A stretch of DNA of 47,332 bases from Dysgonamonadaceae bacterium (GTDB lineage Bacteria; Bacteroidota; Bacteroidia; Bacteroidales; Dysgonomonadaceae). The position numbers and the translations under genes were made by a program. The number at the start of each line of letters is the position of its first letter. Within the stretch, counting starts at the first letter, position 1. The stretch lies in assembly GCA_029975415.1 (NCBI GenBank), contig JARKPE010000125.1:1-47332 (forward strand), written 5' to 3'. Shown in pieces: positions 1,453 to 23,160 of this stretch. The notes beneath the pieces were generated by a model. That model saw only the letters and a program-made list of their open reading frames with translations. It did not search any database and was not told the DNA's origin.

Positions 1453-3183
1453 ATGAAAACAAAAATAATAAAACTTACTCTTGGTCTTGCTCTAATAGTC
1501 CTTTTTTCTTGTGAATCCATGCTCGACCAAAATCCTCAAGGAATAGTAGCATCGGACGAGTTAAATACTCCCGATAAAGTTGAGCAAATGATAATCGCCG
1601 CATATTCGTTCTGCGGACAAAATCATTTCAACAAACAAATGGGAATGCCTTACGCCGAAGGTTCGTGCAGGGGGGGTGAAGCTTACAAAGGAGGAGCAGG
1701 AACAAATGATCTTGCAGAACAAAATTTATGGGAAACATTCACCTATATGGAACCCACAACAACCGGCGAGCTTGATAATCTATGGTGGGTTCATTATGTG
1801 GCTGTCGGAAGAGTTCACGATGCATTAAGAAGGGTACAGAATTTAAGTGAAGAAGAGTTTCCCCTGAAAAAACAACGAATTGCCGAATTACGTTTTTTGC
1901 GTGGACACATCTACATGTATATGAAATTGTGCTTCAAGTTTTTCCCCTACATAGATGAAAATACCCCTGAAGAAGAATATGACAAAATAAGCAATGATGA
2001 ATTGAGCAATGAAGAACTGTGGCAAAAACTGATAGACGATTTCAGATATGGCGTTGAAAATCTTCCTGAAAAACAAGAGGAAGTGGGACGCCCCACCAAA
2101 TATGCTGCAGAAGCCTATCTCGCTAAAGCTTTACTTTTCTCGGCTTACGAACAGGATGAGAACCACAATGTAATAAACATCAATAAAGAAAAACTTACAG
2201 AGGTGGCGAATTTATGTAAAGACATTATCGATTATTCGGGCAAAAGTTTATTTCCCGATTTTGCACAAAACTTCCTTTGTGAATATGAAAATGGACAGGA
2301 ATCCATCTGGGCAATCCAATATTCGGCCAATAATGATGGTTCACCCACAGGCCGTCTCAATTCATGGCTTGTTTGCCCAATGAATCCGGAATACGGTTGT
2401 TGTGGTTTTTTGCAGCCTTCAACCAATATGATGAATCGCTACAAAACGGTCAACGGGGTTCCAGATTTTGAAAACTTCAATTCAGGTATAATGCTTGACA
2501 ATAAAGAAGCCATTGTTACAACTCCCAGCGACCCAAGGTTGTTGCACACCTCATGTGTTCCCGGGTTACCATGGAAATATGATCCCGATTTCATAATGGA
2601 GAAAAGCTGGGTACGTCAACCGGAAGTTTACGGATATACCATGAGTCAAAAATTAATCGTTTTGCCGGATTGTCCATGTTTTAGGAAAACAAATCCTTTT
2701 ATGGGTGCCGCCTTAAATTGGGATGTGCTGCGATTGGATGAGGTAATGTTATGGAGGGCAGAAGCATTGATCCAACTCGGCACAGGTCTTGATGAGGCTT
2801 TGACTTTAATAAACAAAATACGTGAGCGTGCCGCCAATAGCACCGGGAGGCTGAAATTTGCGGATGGATCACCCACCGGGAACTTTGAGGTTGAACCTTA
2901 CAAACCGGGCATAAATTGTCCGGCATGGAATAAAGATTTTGCCTTTAAAGCATTACAATGGGAACGTCATTTGGAATTTTCCACGGAAGGCAAATGGTTT
3001 TTCGACTTGGTACGATGGGGCATTGCAGAAGAATCCATGAACAAATATTTTGAAGTCGAAAAAACAAGGCGTACCTATTTGAAAGATGCAAAATTTACAA
3101 AAGGCCGAGACGAATACTTCCCGATTCCTCAACAACAAATCAGCTACGTAAAAGGAATCTACAAACAGAATCAGGGATACTGA
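1453..3183 (+). CDS. SusD/RagB-like nutrient-binding outer membrane lipoprotein
   Basis: Lipoprotein signal (LIVLFSCESMLDQNPQG), SusD-like C-terminus (LQWERHLEFSTEGKWFFDLVRWG ... YFPIPQQQI), position directly after SusC. Confidence 0.95.
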   Translation: MKTKIIKLTLGLALIVLFSCESMLDQNPQGIVASDELNTPDKVEQMIIAAYSFCGQNHFNKQMGMPYAEGSCRGGEAYKGGAGTNDLAEQNLWETFTYMEPTTTGELDNLWWVHYVAVGRVHDALRRVQNLSEEEFPLKKQRIAELRFLRGHIYMYMKLCFKFFPYIDENTPEEEYDKISNDELSNEELWQKLIDDFRYGVENLPEKQEEVGRPTKYAAEAYLAKALLFSAYEQDENHNVININKEKLTEVANLCKDIIDYSGKSLFPDFAQNFLCEYENGQESIWAIQYSANNDGSPTGRLNSWLVCPMNPEYGCCGFLQPSTNMMNRYKTVNGVPDFENFNSGIMLDNKEAIVTTPSDPRLLHTSCVPGLPWKYDPDFIMEKSWVRQPEVYGYTMSQKLIVLPDCPCFRKTNPFMGAALNWDVLRLDEVMLWRAEALIQLGTGLDEALTLINKIRERAANSTGRLKFADGSPTGNFEVEPYKPGINCPAWNKDFAFKALQWERHLEFSTEGKWFFDLVRWGIAEESMNKYFEVEKTRRTYLKDAKFTKGRDEYFPIPQQQISYVKGIYKQNQGY

Positions 3184-3333
3184 TTTTTGATACGGACCTG
3201 AAAATATTTAAGTATCTTTAATCAAAATTTGTGTGTGCCGGCGACATTTGACTTTAATTCGAAAAATCAAATGTCGCCAGGACCATACAATATAAACAAA
3301 GAAATAATGCATATCTTTAATTCCATAAAAATT

Positions 3334-4926
3334 ATGAATTACCGTTTCGCTGTCGTTTTAACTATTTTGATTTCATCAAAAGCATTCAGTCAAAAGATTG
3401 AAAAAGAATACCTTATTGAAAACAAATACCTCAACATCCCCATCGATATGAAACAGGAAAGGCAAAGGGTTCAATTCGCGTTAGGAGAAGATACGTTGAC
3501 TTACGCTGAAATCCGCATAGCAGATAATGAAATTGACTACTGGGTTTTTGCGGATTTATCCCAATGGAAAGGTGAAAAATTAAAATTGGTATTCAACAAA
3601 CAAGCCAAAGGTATAGAATGCATCTATCAATCCGACAAAATAGAGGGTGAAGACAGTCTCTATAGGGGAACCAATCGTCCTCAATTTCATTTTACCACCC
3701 GACGGGGATGGAACAATGATCCTAATGGCTTGGTCTATCACGATGGGGGATACCATCTGTTTTACCAACACAACCCATACGAAAATCAATGGGGCAATAT
3801 GCATTGGGGACATGCCGTAAGTAAAGACCTGTTGCACTGGGAAGAACTAAATCCTGCTCTTTATCCCGATAAGATGGGAACAATGTTTTCAGGTTCTGCC
3901 GTTATCGATAAGGAAAATACGGGGGGGTGGGGCAAAAATACCATGATTGCATTTTATACAGCAGCAGGGAAAAATATGACTCAGAACCTTGCTTACAGCA
4001 TGAATAATGGACGATCATTCATTAAATATGCCGGTAATCCAATTCTCGGACCCGATAGGGATCCAAAAGTTTTTTGGTATGAACCATCCGGCGTTTGGGT
4101 AATGGTATTGTATGAAGATAATTATTTTGCCATATACAATTCTAAAGATTTGAAAAATTGGGAATATAAAAGCAAAACAAAGGGTTTTTTTGAATGTCCT
4201 GAACTATTTGAATTGCACGTGGATGGAAACGTAAACAATAAAAAATGGGTAATGTACGGTGCATCCGGGACTTATATGATAGGGAATTTTGATGGTGAAG
4301 TTTTTACCCCCGAACAGGGCAAATATTTTTATTCCTGGGGTAGTCAATATGCTGCTCAAACATTCAATAATATACCGGGAGAAAGAAGAATCCAGATAGG
4401 CTGGGGACGAATTGAACAATCCGGTATGCCATTCAATCAGATGATGCTATTCCCAACCGAATTGACACTCAGAACCACCAGGGAAGGCATAAGATTGTTT
4501 TGTGAACCCATAAGGGAAATAGAGAAACTGCACGATAAAAATTATGCATGGAAAAATCTTACTCTAAAAGAAGCAAATAAAAAATTAAACGAAATCGATA
4601 ACGATCTGCTTCATGTGAAAATGGATGTTGAAATAGAGCATGGCTTGGATCTGAAAATTTTCTATAAGGGAAATCCAGTCATTTATTATGATGGAAACTT
4701 TAACCGCTTCAATGGTGCGCCCTATACTTGCACTTATCCCGGAATTTTTCGATTCGACATTGAACTTATTATAGACAAAACATCGATTGAATGTTATATC
4801 GACAAGGGGAAACTTTTTATATCTGATGCATTGAAAAAACCGAAAAAAAACGACGGACTTCAACTGGAAGGAGACATTAAAATTCATTCACTGGAAGCAT
4901 ATGAAATGAAATCTATTTGGGAATAA
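3334..4926 (+). CDS. Glycoside hydrolase family 32 (fructanase/levanase/inulinase-like) with N-terminal beta-sandwich-like extension
   Basis: GH32 motifs WNNDPNG, RDPK and ECPELF. Track ORF starts at 3229, but the ATG at 3334 begins a signal peptide (MNYRFAVVLTILISSKAFSQ). Confidence 0.93.
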   Translation: MNYRFAVVLTILISSKAFSQKIEKEYLIENKYLNIPIDMKQERQRVQFALGEDTLTYAEIRIADNEIDYWVFADLSQWKGEKLKLVFNKQAKGIECIYQSDKIEGEDSLYRGTNRPQFHFTTRRGWNNDPNGLVYHDGGYHLFYQHNPYENQWGNMHWGHAVSKDLLHWEELNPALYPDKMGTMFSGSAVIDKENTGGWGKNTMIAFYTAAGKNMTQNLAYSMNNGRSFIKYAGNPILGPDRDPKVFWYEPSGVWVMVLYEDNYFAIYNSKDLKNWEYKSKTKGFFECPELFELHVDGNVNNKKWVMYGASGTYMIGNFDGEVFTPEQGKYFYSWGSQYAAQTFNNIPGERRIQIGWGRIEQSGMPFNQMMLFPTELTLRTTREGIRLFCEPIREIEKLHDKNYAWKNLTLKEANKKLNEIDNDLLHVKMDVEIEHGLDLKIFYKGNPVIYYDGNFNRFNGAPYTCTYPGIFRFDIELIIDKTSIECYIDKGKLFISDALKKPKKNDGLQLEGDIKIHSLEAYEMKSIWE

Positions 4927-4982
4927 TAAAATTGACAGATATATTGTTTTTAAAAATTAAATCAATAATAAGCATTAATAAT

Positions 4983-6557
4983 ATGAAAGTATACTATTTT
5001 TTCCTGATTTTCGTTGCATTTCTATTTTCAGGATGCAAAAACAGTCGGCCAAAAGAAAAGGGGAATATGCCTTTCCAAGAAAAACATCGTCCCCAAGTAC
5101 ATTTTTCACCTGCAAAAAATTGGATGAACGATCCAAACGGATTGGTTTATTACAATGGGGAATATCATCTTTTTTATCAACATTATCCCGAGAAACCTTT
5201 TTGGGGTCCCATGCATTGGGGACATGCCGTAAGTAGAGATCTTGTGCGTTGGGAACATTTGCCTATAGCTCTTTATCCCGACAGTTTGGGATACATTTTT
5301 TCGGGAAGTGCCGTTGTAGACTTACAGAACACGTCGGGTTTGGGGAGCGATGGTAATCCTCCTCTCATCGCTTTTTTTACATACCATGATCCTGTTGCTG
5401 CCGAGGAAGGACGCAGAAACGAAACGCAGTCTCAAGCCCTTGCTTACAGTATGGATAATGGACGGTCATGGACAAAATACGCGCATAATCCGGTGATAAA
5501 AAATCCGGGAATCCCCGATTTTCGCGATCCGAAAGTGATATGGCATGAAGAAACCCAAAAATGGGTTATGAGTATCGCTGCCGGCCAAGTCATTCAATTT
5601 TATACTTCACCGAACTGTATCGATTGGACTTATAGCGGGGTATTCGGAGAAGGGAAAGGCTCTCATGAAGGTGTATGGGAATGTCCCGATCTTTTTCCTT
5701 TAAAGGTAAAGAATGCGGATGAAACGAAATGGGTATTGATCGTGAACGTTAATCCGGGTGCTCCAGCAGGAGGTTCCGGCACGCAATATTTCGTAGGGGA
5801 ATTCGACGGGCGATGTTTTGAAACCGATCAGGAGGTGACACTATGGATGGACTACGGAAAGGACAATTATGCCGGTGTGACATGGAACAATGCTCCCGAT
5901 AAAAGGAGGATTTTGATCGGATGGATGAATAATTGGCAGTATGCCAATGAAGTTCCCACAGAAGGATGGAGAGGTGCGGCGACTTTTCCGCGCGAGTTAG
6001 GTCTTGAAAAAGAGGGGAACCGGTATTTCCTGACATCCGATCCTGTACCGGAAATTAAAAAATTATATGGGAACAAAGTGAATTTTAAAAAAATGATGAT
6101 TTCGGGTACGGAATCTATTTCGGACAAGATTTCTTTTCCAAAAGCTCCAATAGAAATAACGTTAACTTTTGATTTGGCAAATAAGACAAAAATGGGTTTT
6201 CCTAATAAATACGGCATTACCTTAAAAAATTCCAAAGGGGAATATTACACTGTTGGTTATGATAACATCGACAGGTGTTTTTATGCAGACAGAACTCATG
6301 CAACAGGCGAAAATTTTTCTTCTTCATTTCCTTCCCTGCATTTTGCTCCGTACATTATTCGAGAACCTGCGATAACGTGGCGCATGATTATCGATGTTTC
6401 TTCGGTAGAACTGTTTGCGGCTGATGGCAAAGCGATCATTACCGATTTGGTGTTTCCTTCGGATATTTTTGACGAGATCGAATTGTTTGCCGAAAACGGA
6501 CGTATAGAAGTGAGTGAGGGTACCGTCAGAGAATTAAATTCGATTTGGAATAAATAA
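4983..6557 (+). CDS. Glycoside hydrolase family 32 lipoprotein
   Basis: GH32 motifs WMNDPNG, RDPK and ECPDLF; lipobox LFSGCKNS when started at 4983 rather than 4917. Confidence 0.94.
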   Translation: MKVYYFFLIFVAFLFSGCKNSRPKEKGNMPFQEKHRPQVHFSPAKNWMNDPNGLVYYNGEYHLFYQHYPEKPFWGPMHWGHAVSRDLVRWEHLPIALYPDSLGYIFSGSAVVDLQNTSGLGSDGNPPLIAFFTYHDPVAAEEGRRNETQSQALAYSMDNGRSWTKYAHNPVIKNPGIPDFRDPKVIWHEETQKWVMSIAAGQVIQFYTSPNCIDWTYSGVFGEGKGSHEGVWECPDLFPLKVKNADETKWVLIVNVNPGAPAGGSGTQYFVGEFDGRCFETDQEVTLWMDYGKDNYAGVTWNNAPDKRRILIGWMNNWQYANEVPTEGWRGAATFPRELGLEKEGNRYFLTSDPVPEIKKLYGNKVNFKKMMISGTESISDKISFPKAPIEITLTFDLANKTKMGFPNKYGITLKNSKGEYYTVGYDNIDRCFYADRTHATGENFSSSFPSLHFAPYIIREPAITWRMIIDVSSVELFAADGKAIITDLVFPSDIFDEIELFAENGRIEVSEGTVRELNSIWNK

Positions 6558-7424
6558 ATGAATAATATGAAGAAAAAACCTGTTATCATCGGAATTGGCG
6601 AATTGCTGTGGGATATGCTGCCAACAGGGAAAAAAGCCGGTGGAGCTCCCATTAATTTTGTATATCATGCCTCACGACTCGGAGGCGAAAGTTATGCTAT
6701 CAGTGCCGTCGGCAACGATGCATTGGGAGACGAAATTATGTCGGAAATCGACAAAATCGGCATTCATTACCTCATCGAGCGCATCGATTTTCCTACCGGA
6801 ACAGTGGAAGTGGAACTTAAAAATGGCATTCCCAACTACATCATCAACGAAGGCGTGGCATGGGATCATATTCCGCTAACGGAAGCAATGAAAGACTTGG
6901 CAAAAAGGGCCGATGCCATTTGTTTCGGTACGCTTGCGCAACGTCATCCCGATTCGCGTCATACCATTCAGTCCATTCTCTCTCTTGTGCCGGAAAGCGC
7001 TTTTCGCATTCTCGATATCAATATCCGTCAGCACTACTATTCCGGAGAATTGATCGAAACCTCGCTTCAACAAAGCAATATACTGAAAATTAACGACGAA
7101 GAACTGCTGCTGCTAAAACAACTTTTCGGAAAACAAACGACTACGGACGATGAAATGTGCAACGAGCTCATTGACAAGTATAATCTGAAATATTTAATTC
7201 TGACAGCCGGCGCTGAATACAGTAAGATTTTTACACCGGAAACGAGTTCCCATATCTTAACGCCGAAAGTGGAAGTTGCTGATACAGTGGGTGCCGGAGA
7301 TGCTTTCACGGGAGCTTTCGTTTCTTCGGTTATCGACGGAAAGTCGCTCATCGAATCCCATCAGGCGGCCGTGGACAGAGCCGCTTTCGTTTGTACCCGG
7401 CCTGGAGCGTGGGTCAACGAATAA
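6558..7424 (+). CDS. PfkB-family carbohydrate kinase, probable fructokinase
   Basis: GELLWDMLP...GGAPINFVYHASRLGG and the C-terminal DTVGAGDAFTGAF motif; follows the GH32 genes. Confidence 0.92.
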   Translation: MNNMKKKPVIIGIGELLWDMLPTGKKAGGAPINFVYHASRLGGESYAISAVGNDALGDEIMSEIDKIGIHYLIERIDFPTGTVEVELKNGIPNYIINEGVAWDHIPLTEAMKDLAKRADAICFGTLAQRHPDSRHTIQSILSLVPESAFRILDINIRQHYYSGELIETSLQQSNILKINDEELLLLKQLFGKQTTTDDEMCNELIDKYNLKYLILTAGAEYSKIFTPETSSHILTPKVEVADTVGAGDAFTGAFVSSVIDGKSLIESHQAAVDRAAFVCTRPGAWVNE

Positions 7425-7470
7425 AATCATATTCTAAAATAATTGTATCATTCATAACAACCTATCCCCG

Positions 7471-8643
7471 ATGTACAACAAAAAAATGTTCTTGCAATTG
7501 ATCCCCGTCATGCTGGCCTTCTTCACGATGGGATTCGTAGATTTGGTAGGCATTGCCACAAACTATATCAAAAGCGATTTCGCACTCAATGACACGATGG
7601 CAAACTTGATGCCCTCGATGGTTTTTCTGTGGTTTTTAATTTTTTCGGTTCCTACCGGAATGTTAATGAATCGGATTGGCCGTCGCAAAACGGTGTTGCT
7701 TAGCATCCTGGTGACCATACTGGCACTTCTTGTTCCTTTTTTCCACTACAGTTTCGGCATGATGCTCGTTGCCTTTTCATTACTCGGAATTGGCAATACG
7801 CTGATGCAGGTTTCTCTCAACCCGCTGGTCTCGAATATCGTTAGTGGCGACAAACTGGCAAGCACGCTCACTTTCGGACAATTTGTAAAAGCGATCGCTT
7901 CGTTTCTCGCACCCATCATCGCAGCATGGGCTGTTATTCGGTTTGGCGACTGGAAAATGTTGTTCCCCATTTTTGCCGTTATTGCCGTCGTAGCTGTCAT
8001 TGCTCTCTACTTTACCAAGGTTGAGGAAATGTCTGTCGAGCATCAATCCACCTTTGGCGAATGCTTTGCATTGCTGAAGGACACGTCGATTTTGATGTTG
8101 TTTCTGGGGATCATGATGCACGTGGGCATTGATGTAGGCATAAATACAACTGCACCCAAACTTCTGATCGAACGAACCGGCATGGCACTTGCTCAAGCCG
8201 GATATGCCACAAGCGTTTATTTTCTGTTCAGAACCATTGGCTCATTAAGTGGCGCATTTATTTTAGCCAAATATTCAACAAAGACGTTTTTTCTGGTCAG
8301 CATTTCGATGATAGGACTGGCAATATTCGGGCTATTTTTTGTGCAGGGAACTATCGTCATCTATTTCTGCATCGCATTGATAGGATTTGGGAACTCCAAT
8401 ATCTTCTCCATCATGTTTTCTCAAGCGTTGCTCCATTTACCTTCACGAAACAACGAAATTTCGGGTTTGATGATCATGGGACTTGCCGGCGGAGCTATTT
8501 TCCCTCTTTTAATGGGCATCGCTTCCGACACGCTAAAAAGTCAAATCGGAGCTGTCATTGTTTTGATGCTCTGCCTGATTTATTTGGCATTTCTATCTCC
8601 TCGCATCAAGGACAGCAACAACGTTATCAATGAAAAGAGGTAA
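7471..8643 (+). CDS. MFS sugar permease (FucP-like), probable fructose transporter
   Basis: About 12 hydrophobic segments, NRIGRRKTV loop motif; last gene of the fructan cluster. Confidence 0.85.
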   Translation: MYNKKMFLQLIPVMLAFFTMGFVDLVGIATNYIKSDFALNDTMANLMPSMVFLWFLIFSVPTGMLMNRIGRRKTVLLSILVTILALLVPFFHYSFGMMLVAFSLLGIGNTLMQVSLNPLVSNIVSGDKLASTLTFGQFVKAIASFLAPIIAAWAVIRFGDWKMLFPIFAVIAVVAVIALYFTKVEEMSVEHQSTFGECFALLKDTSILMLFLGIMMHVGIDVGINTTAPKLLIERTGMALAQAGYATSVYFLFRTIGSLSGAFILAKYSTKTFFLVSISMIGLAIFGLFFVQGTIVIYFCIALIGFGNSNIFSIMFSQALLHLPSRNNEISGLMIMGLAGGAIFPLLMGIASDTLKSQIGAVIVLMLCLIYLAFLSPRIKDSNNVINEKR

Positions 8644-16341: not shown

Positions 16342-17115
16342 TTATTTTTGAAGTGATTCCACTAATTTTTTAGCGGCTTCCTCTATCGATTTTTCGCTTG
16401 CCAACAGGGAAACGAACTTGCTGCCAATGATTGCTCCCGAGGCGTTTTTGCATGCAGCATCGAAGGTGGCCCTATTAGCGATGCCAAACCCGATGAGTCG
16501 CGGATGGCGCAGGTTCATGCTGTTGACACGATGGAAATATTCCAGATTCTTTTCGCCGAAAGCTTGTTTGGCGCCGGTTACGGATGCCGACGAAACCATA
16601 TAGATAAATCCCGACGTGTTTTCGTCGATCATGCGGATGCGCTCATCGGATGTTTCGGGCGTGATAAGCATAATGGTATGCAGTCCGTATTTGTCGGCGA
16701 TGGATTTGTAGGATTTCATGTATTCGGCAAACGGAAGATCGGGAATAATCAGTCCGTCGATTCCGCATTCTGAAGCTTTGCGGCAATAGTTTTCGAACCC
16801 GAACTGCAAAATCGGATTCAAATATCCCATCAATACCAGCGGGATGGAAATGGTTTGGCGCACGTTGGTCAATTGTTCGAAAAGCAATTTCACGCTGATG
16901 CCGTTACGCAATGCTTGCGTACTCGAAGACTGGATGACCGGTCCGTCGGCCAACGGATCGCTGAAAGAAACGCCAATTTCCACGAGGTCGATGCCGTTTT
17001 TTTGCAAGGCCTCCAGTACGGGAAGCGTATCGTTCAAATGAGGATAGCCTGCTGTGAAATACACCGACAGGATGTTTTGTTTTTTTTGTTCGAAAAGTTG
17101 ATCTATTCTGTTCAT
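16342..17115 (-). CDS. trpA: Tryptophan synthase alpha chain
   Basis: FTAGYPHLNDTLPVLEALQKNGIDLVEIGVSFSDPLADGPVIQ; last gene of the trp cluster. Confidence 0.98.
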   Translation of the reverse strand: MNRIDQLFEQKKQNILSVYFTAGYPHLNDTLPVLEALQKNGIDLVEIGVSFSDPLADGPVIQSSSTQALRNGISVKLLFEQLTNVRQTISIPLVLMGYLNPILQFGFENYCRKASECGIDGLIIPDLPFAEYMKSYKSIADKYGLHTIMLITPETSDERIRMIDENTSGFIYMVSSASVTGAKQAFGEKNLEYFHRVNSMNLRHPRLIGFGIANRATFDAACKNASGAIIGSKFVSLLASEKSIEEAAKKLVESLQK

Positions 17116-17723
17116 TTTCTTTTGATTTTGTCGATAAACGATTGTAATAAGCGAATGTCTTTATAAGCGGGTGACGTTTCGAAGCGGCTGTTCAGGTCTA
17201 TACCGATGCAGTGTTCGTGTGCAAAGGTTTTCACCATTTCGGCATCGTCCGGTGAGATGCCGCCGCTAAGTAAGAAAGGAGTTTTACCTCGATATGCCGA
17301 AAGAGCGCTCCAGTCGAATTTCTGTCCCGAACCTCCCGGCAAAGGCGTTTTCGTGTCGAACAAAAAATAATCGCAAGCTCCTTCATAGGACGATACCTCT
17401 TCCGATGGGAATCTGTTTTGCACATTGATGGCTTTGATTACTTTCAATCCCCTATTGCGAATACGGCTGCAAAAATCGGGCGTTTCCTGCCCGTGAAGCT
17501 GCACCATGTCGAGACGAAACAGTTGGACGGTTTTCATAATCTGTTCCTCCGTTTCGTTTACGAAAACACCTACGCGCTTCGCGCGTTGAGGCAGATAATT
17601 CGGGAGTTTGCTGACGAAGCGTGGTGAAGTGCGATGAAAAACAAACCCCATCCAATCCACGCCGAGCGCTTCGACCTCGCGAATGTTTTCGGCATCGCGC
17701 ATGCCGCATACTTTCACGATCAT
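17112..17723 (-). CDS. trpF: Phosphoribosylanthranilate isomerase
   Basis: KVCGMRDAENI, MVQLHGQETPDFC, LLSGGISPDDA, GIDLNSRFETSPAYKD. Confidence 0.97.
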   Translation of the reverse strand: MIVKVCGMRDAENIREVEALGVDWMGFVFHRTSPRFVSKLPNYLPQRAKRVGVFVNETEEQIMKTVQLFRLDMVQLHGQETPDFCSRIRNRGLKVIKAINVQNRFPSEEVSSYEGACDYFLFDTKTPLPGGSGQKFDWSALSAYRGKTPFLLSGGISPDDAEMVKTFAHEHCIGIDLNSRFETSPAYKDIRLLQSFIDKIKRK

Positions 17724-18511
17724 GACGCCTGCAACGATTGGGTGAACGCGGCCAGACTTTCGCCCGGATTGCCGTTTTTCATAAAATTCTCGCCGATGAG
17801 GAATCCGCGATAACCCGCTTGTCGCAATTGACGAACGGTTTGCGGATCGGAAATGCCGCTTTCGGAGACCAGTACTGCATCTTTTGGCAGCAGTTCGGCC
17901 ATCTCGAAAGATTTATCCACCGTGGTTACGAAACTTCCCAAATTGCGGTTATTCACTCCGATGAGGTTGTGCTGAGGCGTAATGTACTCGATTTCACGTT
18001 CGTCATGTAATTCGAGCAAGACGTCGAGCCCCAGTTGTTCGGCTATTTCGGAGAATCGCAGGCATTCGTCTTTGGTGATGGCTGCAGCTATCAGCAGTAT
18101 GGCATTGGCGCGATGCAGCTTTGCTTCGTAAATCTGATACTCGTCCACGATAAAGTCTTTGCGCAATACGGGAATATTGCTCTCTGCGACTACCGCGTCG
18201 AGATCGGCAAGCGAACCTCCGAAAAACGCCTCATCGGTGAGCACAGACAGTGCGGCTGCACCGTTTTGTCGATAGGATGAGGTAACCTCCCTTACATCCG
18301 CGTCGCGATGTATCCATCCTTTTGAAGGCGATTTTCGCTTAAACTCGGCAATGATGCCGAAGTCGTCTTTCGCGAGTGCTTCATGCAACGAGAGGGTTTT
18401 GTAGACATTTCTTTCGATTTCTCTGCAAATCGTGTCGAGCGGACATTGAGATTTTTTTGTGGCAACTTCCACTCTTTTGTGTGCTACGATATCCGATAAA
18501 ATATCTTTCAT
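17720..18511 (-). CDS. trpC: Indole-3-glycerol-phosphate synthase
   Basis: MKDILSDIVAHKRVEV, IIAEFKRKSPSKGWI, VLRKDFIVDEYQIYEA, LIGVNNRNL, VSESGI. Start at 18511 preferred over 18691, which would overlap trpD. Confidence 0.97.
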   Translation of the reverse strand: MKDILSDIVAHKRVEVATKKSQCPLDTICREIERNVYKTLSLHEALAKDDFGIIAEFKRKSPSKGWIHRDADVREVTSSYRQNGAAALSVLTDEAFFGGSLADLDAVVAESNIPVLRKDFIVDEYQIYEAKLHRANAILLIAAAITKDECLRFSEIAEQLGLDVLLELHDEREIEYITPQHNLIGVNNRNLGSFVTTVDKSFEMAELLPKDAVLVSESGISDPQTVRQLRQAGYRGFLIGENFMKNGNPGESLAAFTQSLQAS

Positions 18512-18519
18512 TCGATTTG

Positions 18520-19515
18520 TCAACTGTTTAGTTCGATGTATTGGTTGAATGTCTTCAATGCTTTTTTTTCGTAAAGCGACTCGCGCGCGATATCGATGCA
18601 TTCTTCGATGGACTTGTCCTGTTCGATGGTGCGAATGCCGAAAGCCGCATTCACCAACACTGCATTCATCTGCGCTTCGGTAGCTTCGCATCGCAATACA
18701 TGGTCGAAGATACGTGCTGCATCTTCTGGCGTTTCGCCTCCCGATAATTCCGCTTGCGAAGCACGTCTCAGTCCAAGATCTCCCGGAACAAAAAGCTGCT
18801 CGCCCCTATTCGATACGACCTTAAACTGACCGGTGAGCGAGATTTCATCGTATCCGTCGATGCTGTGAACGATGCTGAAATTTTTCTTGCTTTCCTGATA
18901 GATGTAACTGAACAGTCGCATCATCGACAGATCATATACCCCCAATAATTGATAGGGAGGTTGTGTGGGATTGACTAACGGGCCCATGATGTTGAAAAAA
19001 TTACGCACGCCGAGACTCTTGCGTACTCCGGCTACTGCCTTGAGCGCCGGACTGAAAAAAGGAGCATGCAAATATACAAAACCACATTTTTCGATGGAAC
19101 GCTTTAACCGATCTTCATCGGTAGTAAATTTGACACCGTGCAGTTCGAGAACGTTACTTGCCCCGCTGACCGATGTAGCGCCGTAATTGCCATGCTTGGC
19201 TACATGATAACCGGCTCCTGCAATCACAATGGCGGCAAGGGTCGAGATGTTGAATGTATTTTTTCCGTCGCCTCCCGTTCCGACGATGTCGATGGGAGAA
19301 TATGCTGACAAATCAATCGGGACGCGCATGTCGAGCAACGCATCGCGAAACCCGAGAATTTCGTCCACCGAGATGCTGCGCATGAGGAATGTGGTAAGGA
19401 GCGCCGAAATCTGTGCTTCGGGAACATTGCCCGAAACGATGTCGAACAACACCTGTTTCGCTTCATCGCGAGTGAGGTATTGATAATCGAACAGTTTATA
19501 AAGTATTTCTTTCAT
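18520..19515 (-). CDS. trpD: Anthranilate phosphoribosyltransferase
   Basis: VGTGGDGKNTFNIST, HGNYGATSVSGASNVLE, RNFFNIMGPLVNP. Confidence 0.98.
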   Translation of the reverse strand: MKEILYKLFDYQYLTRDEAKQVLFDIVSGNVPEAQISALLTTFLMRSISVDEILGFRDALLDMRVPIDLSAYSPIDIVGTGGDGKNTFNISTLAAIVIAGAGYHVAKHGNYGATSVSGASNVLELHGVKFTTDEDRLKRSIEKCGFVYLHAPFFSPALKAVAGVRKSLGVRNFFNIMGPLVNPTQPPYQLLGVYDLSMMRLFSYIYQESKKNFSIVHSIDGYDEISLTGQFKVVSNRGEQLFVPGDLGLRRASQAELSGGETPEDAARIFDHVLRCEATEAQMNAVLVNAAFGIRTIEQDKSIEECIDIARESLYEKKALKTFNQYIELNS

Positions 19516-19554
19516 ATCTGATATAAATCGTTTGTTGCCGTTATCGGCATCGGG

Positions 19555-20127
19555 TTAATGTTCTAAAAAGTTTTGAATGATTCGAATGCCTTCGGGTGTG
19601 AGCACGGATTCGGGATGAAATTGCACGCCGTGAACATCGAGAGAAATGTGCTTCAACGCCATGATTCGGTTTTCGTCATCCACTGCGGTGATTTCGAGAT
19701 GATCTGTCGGAAAGTCTTCATTCGAAACAATCCACGAATGATAGCGCCCTGCTTGAAATTGGTCGGGCAATCCGTCGAAAATATAATCGTTTGCTTTAAT
19801 ATTGATGGCTGTCTGTACTCCGTGAAAGACGAAAGGAATGTTTTCGAGTTTTGCTCCGAAGGCAAGGCCGATAGCCTGATGTCCCAAACAAACGCCCAAT
19901 ATGCTTTTGTGATCGGCATAACGTCGAATGAGTGGCAGAAGCAACCCGGCTTCTTCAGGCACACCGGGACCCGGGGACAAAATGATTTTGTCATATTGTT
20001 CCACCGAATCCAAATCGATACGGTCGTTGCGGACTACGTCCACATCGGCGAAGCCGAGCGATTTTACGGCATGCACCAAATTATAAGTGAAAGAGTCGTA
20101 GTTGTCGAAAATAAGTACTTTTTTCAT
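19555..20127 (-). CDS. trpG: Anthranilate synthase component II (glutamine amidotransferase)
   Basis: MKKVLIFDNYDSFTYNLVH, ILSPGPGVPEEAG, GVCLGHQAIG, VHGVQFHPESVLTPEG. Start at 20127 preferred over 20136. Confidence 0.97.
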   Translation of the reverse strand: MKKVLIFDNYDSFTYNLVHAVKSLGFADVDVVRNDRIDLDSVEQYDKIILSPGPGVPEEAGLLLPLIRRYADHKSILGVCLGHQAIGLAFGAKLENIPFVFHGVQTAINIKANDYIFDGLPDQFQAGRYHSWIVSNEDFPTDHLEITAVDDENRIMALKHISLDVHGVQFHPESVLTPEGIRIIQNFLEH

Positions 20128-20137
20128 TGCTCCCAAA

Positions 20138-21544
20138 TTATGCGTTGAACAAATTGGCTGCGCGATCGATAGCGCTTTTCAAAGCACCGAGCTTACTGTT
20201 GACTTCCTGCAATTCATATTCGTCATTGCTTTGCGCCACAATTCCAGCTCCGGCCTGATACCATAGCTCGTTGTTGCGGCTCACAAAGGTTCGGATGGTG
20301 ATGGCCTGATTGAGATCGCCGTTGAGTCCGATGAATCCGATGCACCCGCCGTAAGCGCCGCGATTGTGTTTTTCGATTTCGGAAATAAGTTGCATGGCAC
20401 GTACTTTTGGCGCACCCGATAACGTGCCGGCAGGGAACGTATCGAAAAATGCCCGAATCGAATCTGCTTCATCGTCGAGTATTCCGCTGACGCGGGAAAC
20501 CAAATGAATGACATGCGAGTAGAATTGCGGTTCCTTATAAAAATCGACTTTCACGTCGTGTGCATGCCGGCTCAGATCGTTTCGCGCCAAATCCACCAAC
20601 ATCACATGTTCTGCATTTTCTTTGGGATCGTTGAGCAGAAAATTCACGGCTTTCATATCCTCTCTGTAATTCCCCGTTCGCTTGGTGGTTCCGGCAATCG
20701 GGTCGATGCTGATATGCCTGCCATTGATCTTGCAATGCGTTTCGGGCGAAGAACCGAAGATGCGGTATCCGCCGAAATCGAAATAAAACAGATAAGGCGA
20801 AGGATTGATGGAACGCAATGCCCGATATACCTTGAAATCGTCACCCGAATAGCGCTGTACGAAACGCCTTGACAACACGATCTGAAAGACATCGCCCCGC
20901 AAACAGTGTTGTACGCCGCGACGCACGTTGGCTTTGAACTCTTCGTCCGTCGTCGTGCTGTATTCCTCCCCCTCAGGGAAAAAATTGTAAGAAGCAAAGT
21001 TTCGCATGTTGATGAGAACCTCCACGCGTTCGAGGCGACTCTGTTCGTTATCGCGCAACAATTCCATTAACACGATTTCGTCGGTAAAATGGTTGAATAT
21101 CATGATGTATCGATAGAGGATATACAACATATCGGGAGCATCGTTCTGCTTTTCCTTGCTCTCACGAATAGCGATGTTTTCGGTATATTTCACACAGTTG
21201 AAAGTTGTGTAACCGAACAAACCGCATGCGTTTTTGTCGGGCCCTTCCACTTCGATGTCGGCAATGAATCCGCTCAGTGCGTCGGCAATAGTGAACGAAT
21301 CGGAGAGCTGCCGTTTATGTCGGCTATCGTCGGGATATTTCATCGTGCAAACGCCTCGATTGACTTCTACGCTTGCAATCGGCTCCAGGCCTATATACGA
21401 TGTGCTGTTTTCGTTGGCATGAAAATCGGAACTTTCGAGTAATGCCGATTGAGGGAACGTGTCGCGTATTTTTAAATAAAGGCTCACCGGCGTATGGAGG
21501 TCGGCCAATATTTTTTTTGTTTTGGTATGAAAAGTGTACTTCAT
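20138..21544 (-). CDS. trpE: Anthranilate synthase component I
   Basis: LLESSDF (LLES motif), IVLSRRFVQRYSGDDFKVYRALRSINPSPYLFYFDFG, FPAGTLSGAPKVRAM, YGGCIGFIG. Confidence 0.97.
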   Translation of the reverse strand: MKYTFHTKTKKILADLHTPVSLYLKIRDTFPQSALLESSDFHANENSTSYIGLEPIASVEVNRGVCTMKYPDDSRHKRQLSDSFTIADALSGFIADIEVEGPDKNACGLFGYTTFNCVKYTENIAIRESKEKQNDAPDMLYILYRYIMIFNHFTDEIVLMELLRDNEQSRLERVEVLINMRNFASYNFFPEGEEYSTTTDEEFKANVRRGVQHCLRGDVFQIVLSRRFVQRYSGDDFKVYRALRSINPSPYLFYFDFGGYRIFGSSPETHCKINGRHISIDPIAGTTKRTGNYREDMKAVNFLLNDPKENAEHVMLVDLARNDLSRHAHDVKVDFYKEPQFYSHVIHLVSRVSGILDDEADSIRAFFDTFPAGTLSGAPKVRAMQLISEIEKHNRGAYGGCIGFIGLNGDLNQAITIRTFVSRNNELWYQAGAGIVAQSNDEYELQEVNSKLGALKSAIDRAANLFNA

Positions 21545-21555
21545 CTGATCAGGTT

Positions 21556-22743
21556 TTAAAATTGATTTTCGTACTTGAAATAGGTTTCGAGGTCTTTATC
21601 GCCTCTTCCCGAAAGTGTCAGAACTACCACATCATCCGGATCGAAATCGACTTTTTCCAAGGCAGCCAATGCATGTGCCGATTCCAGTGCGGGAATGATA
21701 CCTTCCTTGCGCGTCAACTCGAAAGCAGCCCGAAGAGCTTCGTCGTCGTTGATGGGGAGCACTCGGGCACGATGTTGCGAAGCCAGATTGGCATGGATGG
21801 GCCCGACTCCCGGATAATCGAGTCCGGCCGAAATGGAGTATGGCTCGGTAATCTGTCCGTCTTCGGTTTGCATCAACAAGGTTTTGCACCCATGCAGCAC
21901 GCCGATCGTCCCCAATTGAATGGTGGCAGCCGAATAGCCGCTATCAACCCCTTTACCGCCTGCTTCGGCCAATACGATTTTCACTCGATCGTTGTCGAGA
22001 TATTCGTAAATAGTGCCGGCCGCATTGCTTCCGCCTCCCACGCAAGCTACCAGATAATCAGGATAATCACGTCCCTCTTTTTCCATGAGCTGGACTTTTA
22101 TTTCTTTGCTGATTACCGATTGCAGTCGTGCCACCAAATCGGGATAGGGATGAGGCCCGATAGTGGATCCGATGATATAGTGCGTTTCTTCGGGATGACT
22201 GCACCAGTCGCGAATGGCTTCGTTCGTGGCATCTTTGAGTGTCATGTTGCCCGAAGTTACGGGTACGACGGTAGCGCCCAACATCTCCATTTTTTTTACG
22301 TTCACGGCCTGACGTTCGACATCCGTTTTGCCCATATACACGGTGCAAGGCATTTGCATCAGTGCGCAAACCGTGGCGGCAGCTACGCCGTGTTGACCGG
22401 CGCCGGTTTCGGCGATGATGCGGGTTTTACCCATTTCGCGCGCAATCAGTATTTGTCCGATGGCATTGTTGATTTTGTGTGCACCGGTGTGGTTCAGGTC
22501 TTCGCGCTTGAGATAGATTCTGCACCCAAAACGCTCGGAAAGTTGTTGCGAAAGATAGAGCGGCGAAGGCCGGCCGACGTAGTCGCGCAACAATTGTTCG
22601 AATTCGCGTTTGAACTTTTCGCTTTCGAGAATGCGCAGGTAGGAATTTTCCAAATCCTTCACGCATTTGTAGAGAATTTCGGGTACGAATGCTCCTCCAA
22701 ATTCTCCATAATACCCATTACTGTCAACTGAAAATTTTTGCAT
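21556..22743 (-). CDS. trpB: Tryptophan synthase beta chain
   Basis: GRPSPLY, LKREDLNHTGAHKINN, ETGAGQHGVA, VGGGSNAAG. Confidence 0.98.
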   Translation of the reverse strand: MQKFSVDSNGYYGEFGGAFVPEILYKCVKDLENSYLRILESEKFKREFEQLLRDYVGRPSPLYLSQQLSERFGCRIYLKREDLNHTGAHKINNAIGQILIAREMGKTRIIAETGAGQHGVAAATVCALMQMPCTVYMGKTDVERQAVNVKKMEMLGATVVPVTSGNMTLKDATNEAIRDWCSHPEETHYIIGSTIGPHPYPDLVARLQSVISKEIKVQLMEKEGRDYPDYLVACVGGGSNAAGTIYEYLDNDRVKIVLAEAGGKGVDSGYSAATIQLGTIGVLHGCKTLLMQTEDGQITEPYSISAGLDYPGVGPIHANLASQHRARVLPINDDEALRAAFELTRKEGIIPALESAHALAALEKVDFDPDDVVVLTLSGRGDKDLETYFKYENQF

Positions 22744-22783: not shown

Positions 22784-22812
22784 AAAAAAGCCTGTCGCAG
22801 GTGCGACAGGCT
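22784..22812 (-). terminator. Intrinsic terminator/attenuator hairpin in the trp leader: AGCCTGTCGCA-CC-TGCGACAGGCT followed by TTTTTT
   Basis: 11-nt perfectly complementary arms (apical pairs probably open) and a T-run on the minus strand, ending 40 nt before the trpB ATG. Confidence 0.9.
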
Positions 22813-22859
22813 ATCTTTTTTTATTCCGTTGTATCACATTAAGACATGACTGCTTTCCC

Positions 22860-22919
22860 TTACGACTGTATGAGTTGTAAGTGACGCCACCAATATCCGT
22901 TTGTGATCGATAAATTCAT
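22860..22919 (-). CDS. Putative trp leader peptide MNLSITNGYWWRHLQLIQS (19 aa, tandem Trp)
   Basis: Reverse complement ATGAATTTATCGATCACAAACGGATATTGGTGGCGTCACTTACAACTCATACAGTCGTAA; TGG TGG at 22892-22887; followed by the hairpin/T-tract and trpB. Absent from the ORF track because it is short. Confidence 0.75.
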   Translation of the reverse strand: MNLSITNGYWWRHLQLIQS

Positions 22920-23160
22920 TTTTCTAATATTTGCCTGCAAAGAAAAATAATTTGAAAATAAAATGCAACTTATTTTTCGATTTTAACATAATGTAGATTC
23001 AACCGGCAAGTGCGAAATTACACAAAATGTTTAAAAAAACTCATTTTGGGTAAACCTTAATTCCACAAGCGAATTATAATATAAAGGAGCAATGAGTTGA
23101 TAATAAATAAATTACCAAACGATTTCCAAGTGTAAGATTTCTCCTGTCTTTATGAGTTAA

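Follow-up and report, generated by a model that had tools for sequence, protein, structure and literature searches.

A short RNA leader upstream of trpB is, at a probability of about 0.9, a ribosome-mediated transcription attenuator of the trp operon, of the Bacteroid-trp kind (RF01692) by orthology. It lies in a 47,332-nucleotide stretch of DNA (the window) from a Dysgonomonadaceae bacterium. Judged from sequence comparison, tryptophan supply is very probably read via the stalling of a ribosome on two Trp codons. On the minus strand, a promoter, a leader ORF, an intrinsic terminator, and trpBEGDCFA follow one another in that order (Table 1). An earlier note on this DNA had described a short ORF 174 nt upstream of trpB; the ORF stands, while the coordinates place its ATG 176 nt upstream of the trpB ATG (22743). 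The consecutive TGG codons that the note had reported indeed lie within this ORF. The terminator, said to follow about 50 nt later and to end 40 nt before trpB, begins 47 nt after the leader stop, and its T run ends at exactly that distance from the gene. The seven ORFs downstream of the leader were assigned by NCBIfam as TrpB, E, G, D, C, F, and A, which is the gene order given in the earlier note.

The -7 box consensus of Bacteroidota is TAnnTTTG. Promoter-like boxes precede the leader ORF in the window, and the elements TTG(C) and TTTG(C), about 20 nt upstream of the leader ATG, are conserved among the family loci. Transcription is expected to start near 22931, about 12 nt upstream of the leader ORF. 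Elsewhere in the window (1453-8643), the translations read as a fructan-type utilization cluster, in which a SusD-like protein and an MFS transporter accompany two GH32-like enzymes and a sugar kinase.

Table 1. Features of the predicted trp leader and its operon in the window
Feature	Position	Strand	Description	Basis
Bacteroidota-type promoter	22938..22968	minus	-33 TTG 22968-22966; -7 box TTTCTTTG 22945-22938; spacer 20 nt
Leader ORF	ATG 22919 to TAA 22862-22860	minus	MNLSITNGYWWRHLQLIQS*; 19 codons	orthologues in family
Tandem Trp codons	22892-22887	minus	TGG TGG, presumed ribosome stall site	sequence
1:2 hairpin	22842..22898	minus	GGAUAU 22898-22893 with AUGUCU 22847-22842; core CUUACAAC 22881-22874 with GUCGUAAG 22866-22859
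Region 2, antiterminator 5′ strand	22841..22866	minus	GUCGUAAGG (22866-22858; last sense codon and stop codon) through GCAG, UGUCUU
Antiterminator 3′ strand	22794..22817	minus	AAGAUAG-CUGU-CCUGCGAC: spacer, terminator 5′ arm, loop, start of 3′ arm
Intrinsic terminator	22784..22812	minus	AGCCUGUCGC ACCU GCGACAGGCU and U run; 10-pair stem 22812-22789, loop ACCU, T run to 22784
trp operon trpB-E-G-D-C-F-A	16342..22743	minus	presumed controlled unit	NCBIfam

At low tryptophan, a ribosome would stall on the Trp pair. Region 1, which extends from the NGYWW codons through the subsequent CUUACAAC, would then be covered, and region 2, the strand that starts at the leader stop codon, would be set free. 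Free region 2 would pair with the emerging spacer, the terminator 5′ arm, and the loop and then zip into the 3′ arm; the antiterminator so formed would block the terminator, and trpB to trpA would be transcribed. At high tryptophan, the ribosome would reach the stop codon and occupy region 2, the terminator would form, and the operon would be off. If the leader were not translated, the 1:2 hairpin would hide region 2, and the terminator would likewise form. Sequence and comparison show an ORF with conserved cognate codons, promoter-like boxes, a terminator ahead of the first gene, and three alternative structures, among them an antiterminator computed to exclude the terminator; translation of the ORF, stalling, the ribosome footprint, and the response to tryptophan are our inference. 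Ribosome-mediated attenuation, which the earlier note had proposed, is supported by comparative genomics because the conserved Trp codons, the compensated terminator, and the set of 1:2, antiterminator, and terminator structures match its predictions.

Conservation of the leader ORF within the family

Among 101 Dysgonomonadaceae genomes searched, 97 had trpB-like matches, and 83 trpB loci were fetched. Alignment of related trpB upstream regions, which had been suggested as a check, revealed the leader ORF in 80/80 loci with sufficient upstream sequence, as well as a terminator with compensatory changes. The ORF was found directly in 78 loci and by inspection in L005, where it lies at -438, and in L015, where the locus sequence begins inside it; the other three loci were ended by contig ends. 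Because it is present in every family trpB upstream region of sufficient length, comparison of the sequences confirmed the leader ORF as more than a chance occurrence. The chance level was gauged from the window, in which a short ATG ORF (8 to 40 amino acids) with WW occurred in 17 of 940 tiles of 400 nt, and from control regions upstream of hisG, pheA, or ilvD, where a short WW ORF was found in 0/52.

Typical leader peptides in the family read MnnLLxNGYWWRxLQLxKS or MNFqLTNTYWWWHSQLKKS. The Trp codons of relatives occur as WW, WWW, or split pairs, with a single Trp in L043. The placement of the ATG and of the Trp codons is constant, both in the family and in the RF01692 loci, and the neighboring residues are variable. 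The distance between terminator and trpB varied between about 30 and 300 nt in family loci such as L005, L009, and L027, indicating that the form of the leader is kept with variable DNA behind it.

The terminator and the 1:2 hairpin

Folding of the alternatives, a further check that had been suggested, resolved the 1:2 hairpin, the antiterminator, and the terminator. Leader and terminator together folded at -41.4 kcal/mol (z = -4.1 versus 200 dinucleotide shuffles). In an alignment of 75 leaders from 75 species, 100% of the cells of the terminator stem were paired, and 5 of its 10 pairs carried changes on both sides. A CTTAC/GTAAG pairing that had been noticed across the leader stop proved to be real and forms the core of the 1:2 hairpin, with 94% of cells paired in the 75 species and 94 to 98% within clades. 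Taken jointly, the terminator and the 1:2 core were paired in 97.6% of cells, 59 of which were altered on both sides; sliding the partner by 1 to 3 columns as a control gave pairing in only 23 to 51%. The hairpin spans both Trp codons and the stop codon. It is extended outward in a clade-specific manner, by GGAUAU/AUGUCU, UAAACG/CGUUUA, or AAUACAU/AUGUAUU, so that the Trp codons are covered.

A predicted antiterminator that begins on the leader stop codon

The earlier note had seen no clean antiterminator by eye. Folding located one, in which GUCGUAA-GG....GCAG.C.UGUCUU (22866-22841) pairs with AAGAUAG.CUGU....CCUGCGAC (22817-22794) and the spacer within the 3′ strand is A-rich. For this fold, the sequence was removed through 13 nt past the second Trp codon, an assumed stall footprint; with region 1 removed, the remainder of the leader formed a single long hairpin before the terminator was complete. 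Two other candidates were discarded. A pairing of GUGGCGUCA with the terminator 5′ arm, previously described as imperfect, is absent in Dysgonomonas-type leaders. A pairing of the region 1 segment CUUACAAC with the same arm was weaker by inspection, and this segment would lie under the stalled ribosome.

With 3 to 7 nt of the terminator 3′ arm still outstanding, the antiterminator had a lower energy than the fold lacking 2:3 pairing in 78/78 family leaders, by a mean of about 7 kcal/mol, and it kept this lead in all 78 until the final 2 to 3 bases of the terminator emerged. Once two bases beyond the stem were out, the terminator was favored in 74/78. Shuffling of region 2 weakened the antiterminator from a mean of -17.9 to -11.1 kcal/mol, and 84 of 2,340 shuffles reached the native energy. 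Considered alone, the antiterminator of the window is unremarkable (-16.3 kcal/mol; z = -1.2; 29/200 shuffles equally good), and the support for this predicted structure is comparative.

Family leaders of the UAA type (GUCGUAAGG) have the terminator loop CCU or UCCU, and those of the UGA type (GUCGUGAG) have the loop CUCA. Pairing of region 2 with the loop and 3′ arm amounted to -11.7 and -12.7 kcal/mol within types, compared with -7.2 and -7.7 kcal/mol across types. Within the family, this concerted difference in loop and region 2 may go back to a single old event inherited by many species. In seven relatives (L024, L026, L029, L030, L042, L045, and L048), the reading frame of the leader stops short of the usual stop or runs past it, yet GUCGUAAGG is preserved, indicating that this segment is maintained as RNA and not as peptide. 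We also inspected 56 RF01692 loci, of which 54 belong to other families and two to Dysgonomonadaceae, one of these being the window. In most of these, region 2 remained complementary to the loop and 3′ arm with altered yet matching letters, as in UCGUGAAC with GUUCGCGA (L110), CCGUGAGU with ACUUACGG (L111), and GUCGUAAG with CUUACGGC (L102); complementarity between stop region and terminator loop was not seen in members L140 and L099.

These data bear on a simpler form of attenuation, in which the antiterminator is distal only, a classical 2:3 helix of the spacer and 5′ arm with a UGUCUU-type strand, and the match of the stop segment to the loop and 3′ arm is an incidental likeness to the 5′ arm. 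The distal helix is enough to tie up the 5′ arm while the 3′ arm has yet to emerge, and GUCGU in region 2 is similar to that arm. However, loop bases that have no role in the terminator stem track region 2: CCU or UCCU is matched by AAGG(A) and CUCA by UGAG, and CCUU is found in L016, L020, and L011, removing the bulge in the first two. Moreover, region 2 pairs with the loop 4 to 5 kcal/mol better within than across types, and its complementarity to the loop persists across the phylum in altered form. Duplex energies of distal region 2 by themselves had modest clade specificity. We therefore consider the distal-only antiterminator unlikely, and favor one that starts at the stop codon and runs through the loop.

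Relation to Bacteroid-trp RNA

All 131 positions of the RF01692 covariance model could be aligned to the window leader (46.6 bits; E 1.2e-4), which misses the gathering score of 49 bits by 2.4 bits. This match surfaced in an E-value scan and is the sole one in its genome. Because 8/20 orthologous Dysgonomonadaceae leaders lie above the 49-bit cut-off, the score below it reflects the curators' threshold rather than a different ancestry. By sequence, the window leader is an orthologue of RF01692 members just under the cut-off and of a kind already known. It shares with them the position before trp genes in Bacteroidota, a short ORF with Trp codons, and a long 1:2 hairpin over these codons and the stop. 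Where the window has two Trp codons followed by Arg, the RF01692 consensus has a third TGG-like codon, and the RF01692 model, which ends within the 5′ arm of the terminator, depicts neither antiterminator nor terminator. What is new here is the predicted antiterminator, with its start on the stop codon of the leader.

Under strict filters, RF01692 was present in at least 44 of 296 genomes of the order and at least 36 of 300 of the phylum; in 14 control genomes, a match was found in a Bacteroides only. In the RF01692 loci that were fetched, the leader ORF contains WW or WWW, and the gene downstream is trpB or trpE, apart from L096, which is cut short by a contig end. In phylum loci outside the order, the leader precedes trpE. 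Loci of trpB fetched by name had WW leaders across Bacteroidales, and none was found within 600 nt of trpB in several Prevotella and Chitinophaga.

A conserved, structured RNA ahead of trp genes might also be expected if the terminator were controlled independently of ribosomes, by a TRAP-like protein, by uncharged tRNA as in a T-box, or by a ligand, with an incidental ORF. This is very improbable, since the ATG and the Trp codons are fixed in place while adjoining residues vary, and since a scan of the window at gathering scores found no Rfam family, T-box included; RF00230 had no match in the leader at E values up to 5 either, and Bacteroid-trp alone had a meaningful E-value. A constitutive terminator beside a chance ORF, with no regulation at all, is scarcely credible given the conservation, with compensatory changes, in every testable family locus and, elsewhere in the phylum, in further families. 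The ribosome-mediated attenuator is thus the reading that we retain.

Comparison with other amino acid leaders

In E. coli trpL, a leader ORF contains Trp codons, 1:2, 2:3, and 3:4 structures alternate, and a terminator stands before the operon. We propose a likeness of the window leader to trpL (RF00513) in each of these respects; the RF00513 model itself had no match to the leader at E values up to 5. In contrast to trpL, region 2 here begins at the leader stop, the predicted antiterminator crosses the terminator loop into the 3′ arm, and the first gene of the operon is trpB instead of trpE. The Bacteroid-trp family goes back to a 2010 publication, which presented it as a cis-regulatory motif of the Bacteroidetes (Weinberg et al., PMC2864571); its resemblance to the E. 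coli trp leader was noted in 2019 (PMC6414381). In the same phylum, leader-peptide attenuators before amino acid operons have likewise been proposed for Flavobacterium psychrophilum (PMC9723704). The passages of PMC9723704 and PMC6414381 on these leaders give no antiterminator.

The genome of the window also has an HHHH leader ORF before hisG and an FFFYFYF leader ORF before pheA, each with a terminator. The candidate His leader (MKANRIHHHHFQTCHQASRL*, L142) lies about 321 to 258 nt before the HisG domain match and is followed by the terminator AACCCGCTTGAGTAAATTAGGCGGGTTTTTT; its stop-proximal UCAAGCG is complementary to CGCUUGA at the stem end and loop of that terminator. It scored 28.3 bits (E 0.17) against the Rfam His_leader and is thus not covered by Rfam. 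Reading of the peptides gave HHHH-type leaders in 27/30 family his loci. The candidate Phe leader (MKHSSFAYSFFFYFYFSK*, L143) lies upstream of pheA, about 413 to 356 nt before the PDT domain match, and GGGAUUUUAU after its stop is complementary to AUAAAAUCC in the 5′ side of its terminator. FYFYFYF-like leaders were counted in the same way in about 16/30 family phe loci.

Implications

The analysis confirms from raw sequence a probable Trp-sensing leader in a phylum for which tests of RNA regulation are few; it also provides the predicted antiterminator that had been lacking, down to its exact bases. We tentatively suggest, at somewhat less than even odds, that leader-peptide attenuators of Bacteroidota share a layout in which the leader stop starts the antiterminator strand and pairing runs via the loop as far as the 3′ arm; a ribosome terminating at that stop would then directly block antitermination. 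The stop-proximal segment of the candidate His leader is arranged in a similar way. If this layout is general, a stop-codon segment complementary to the loop of a downstream terminator would provide a rule by which attenuators could be searched for in Bacteroidota.
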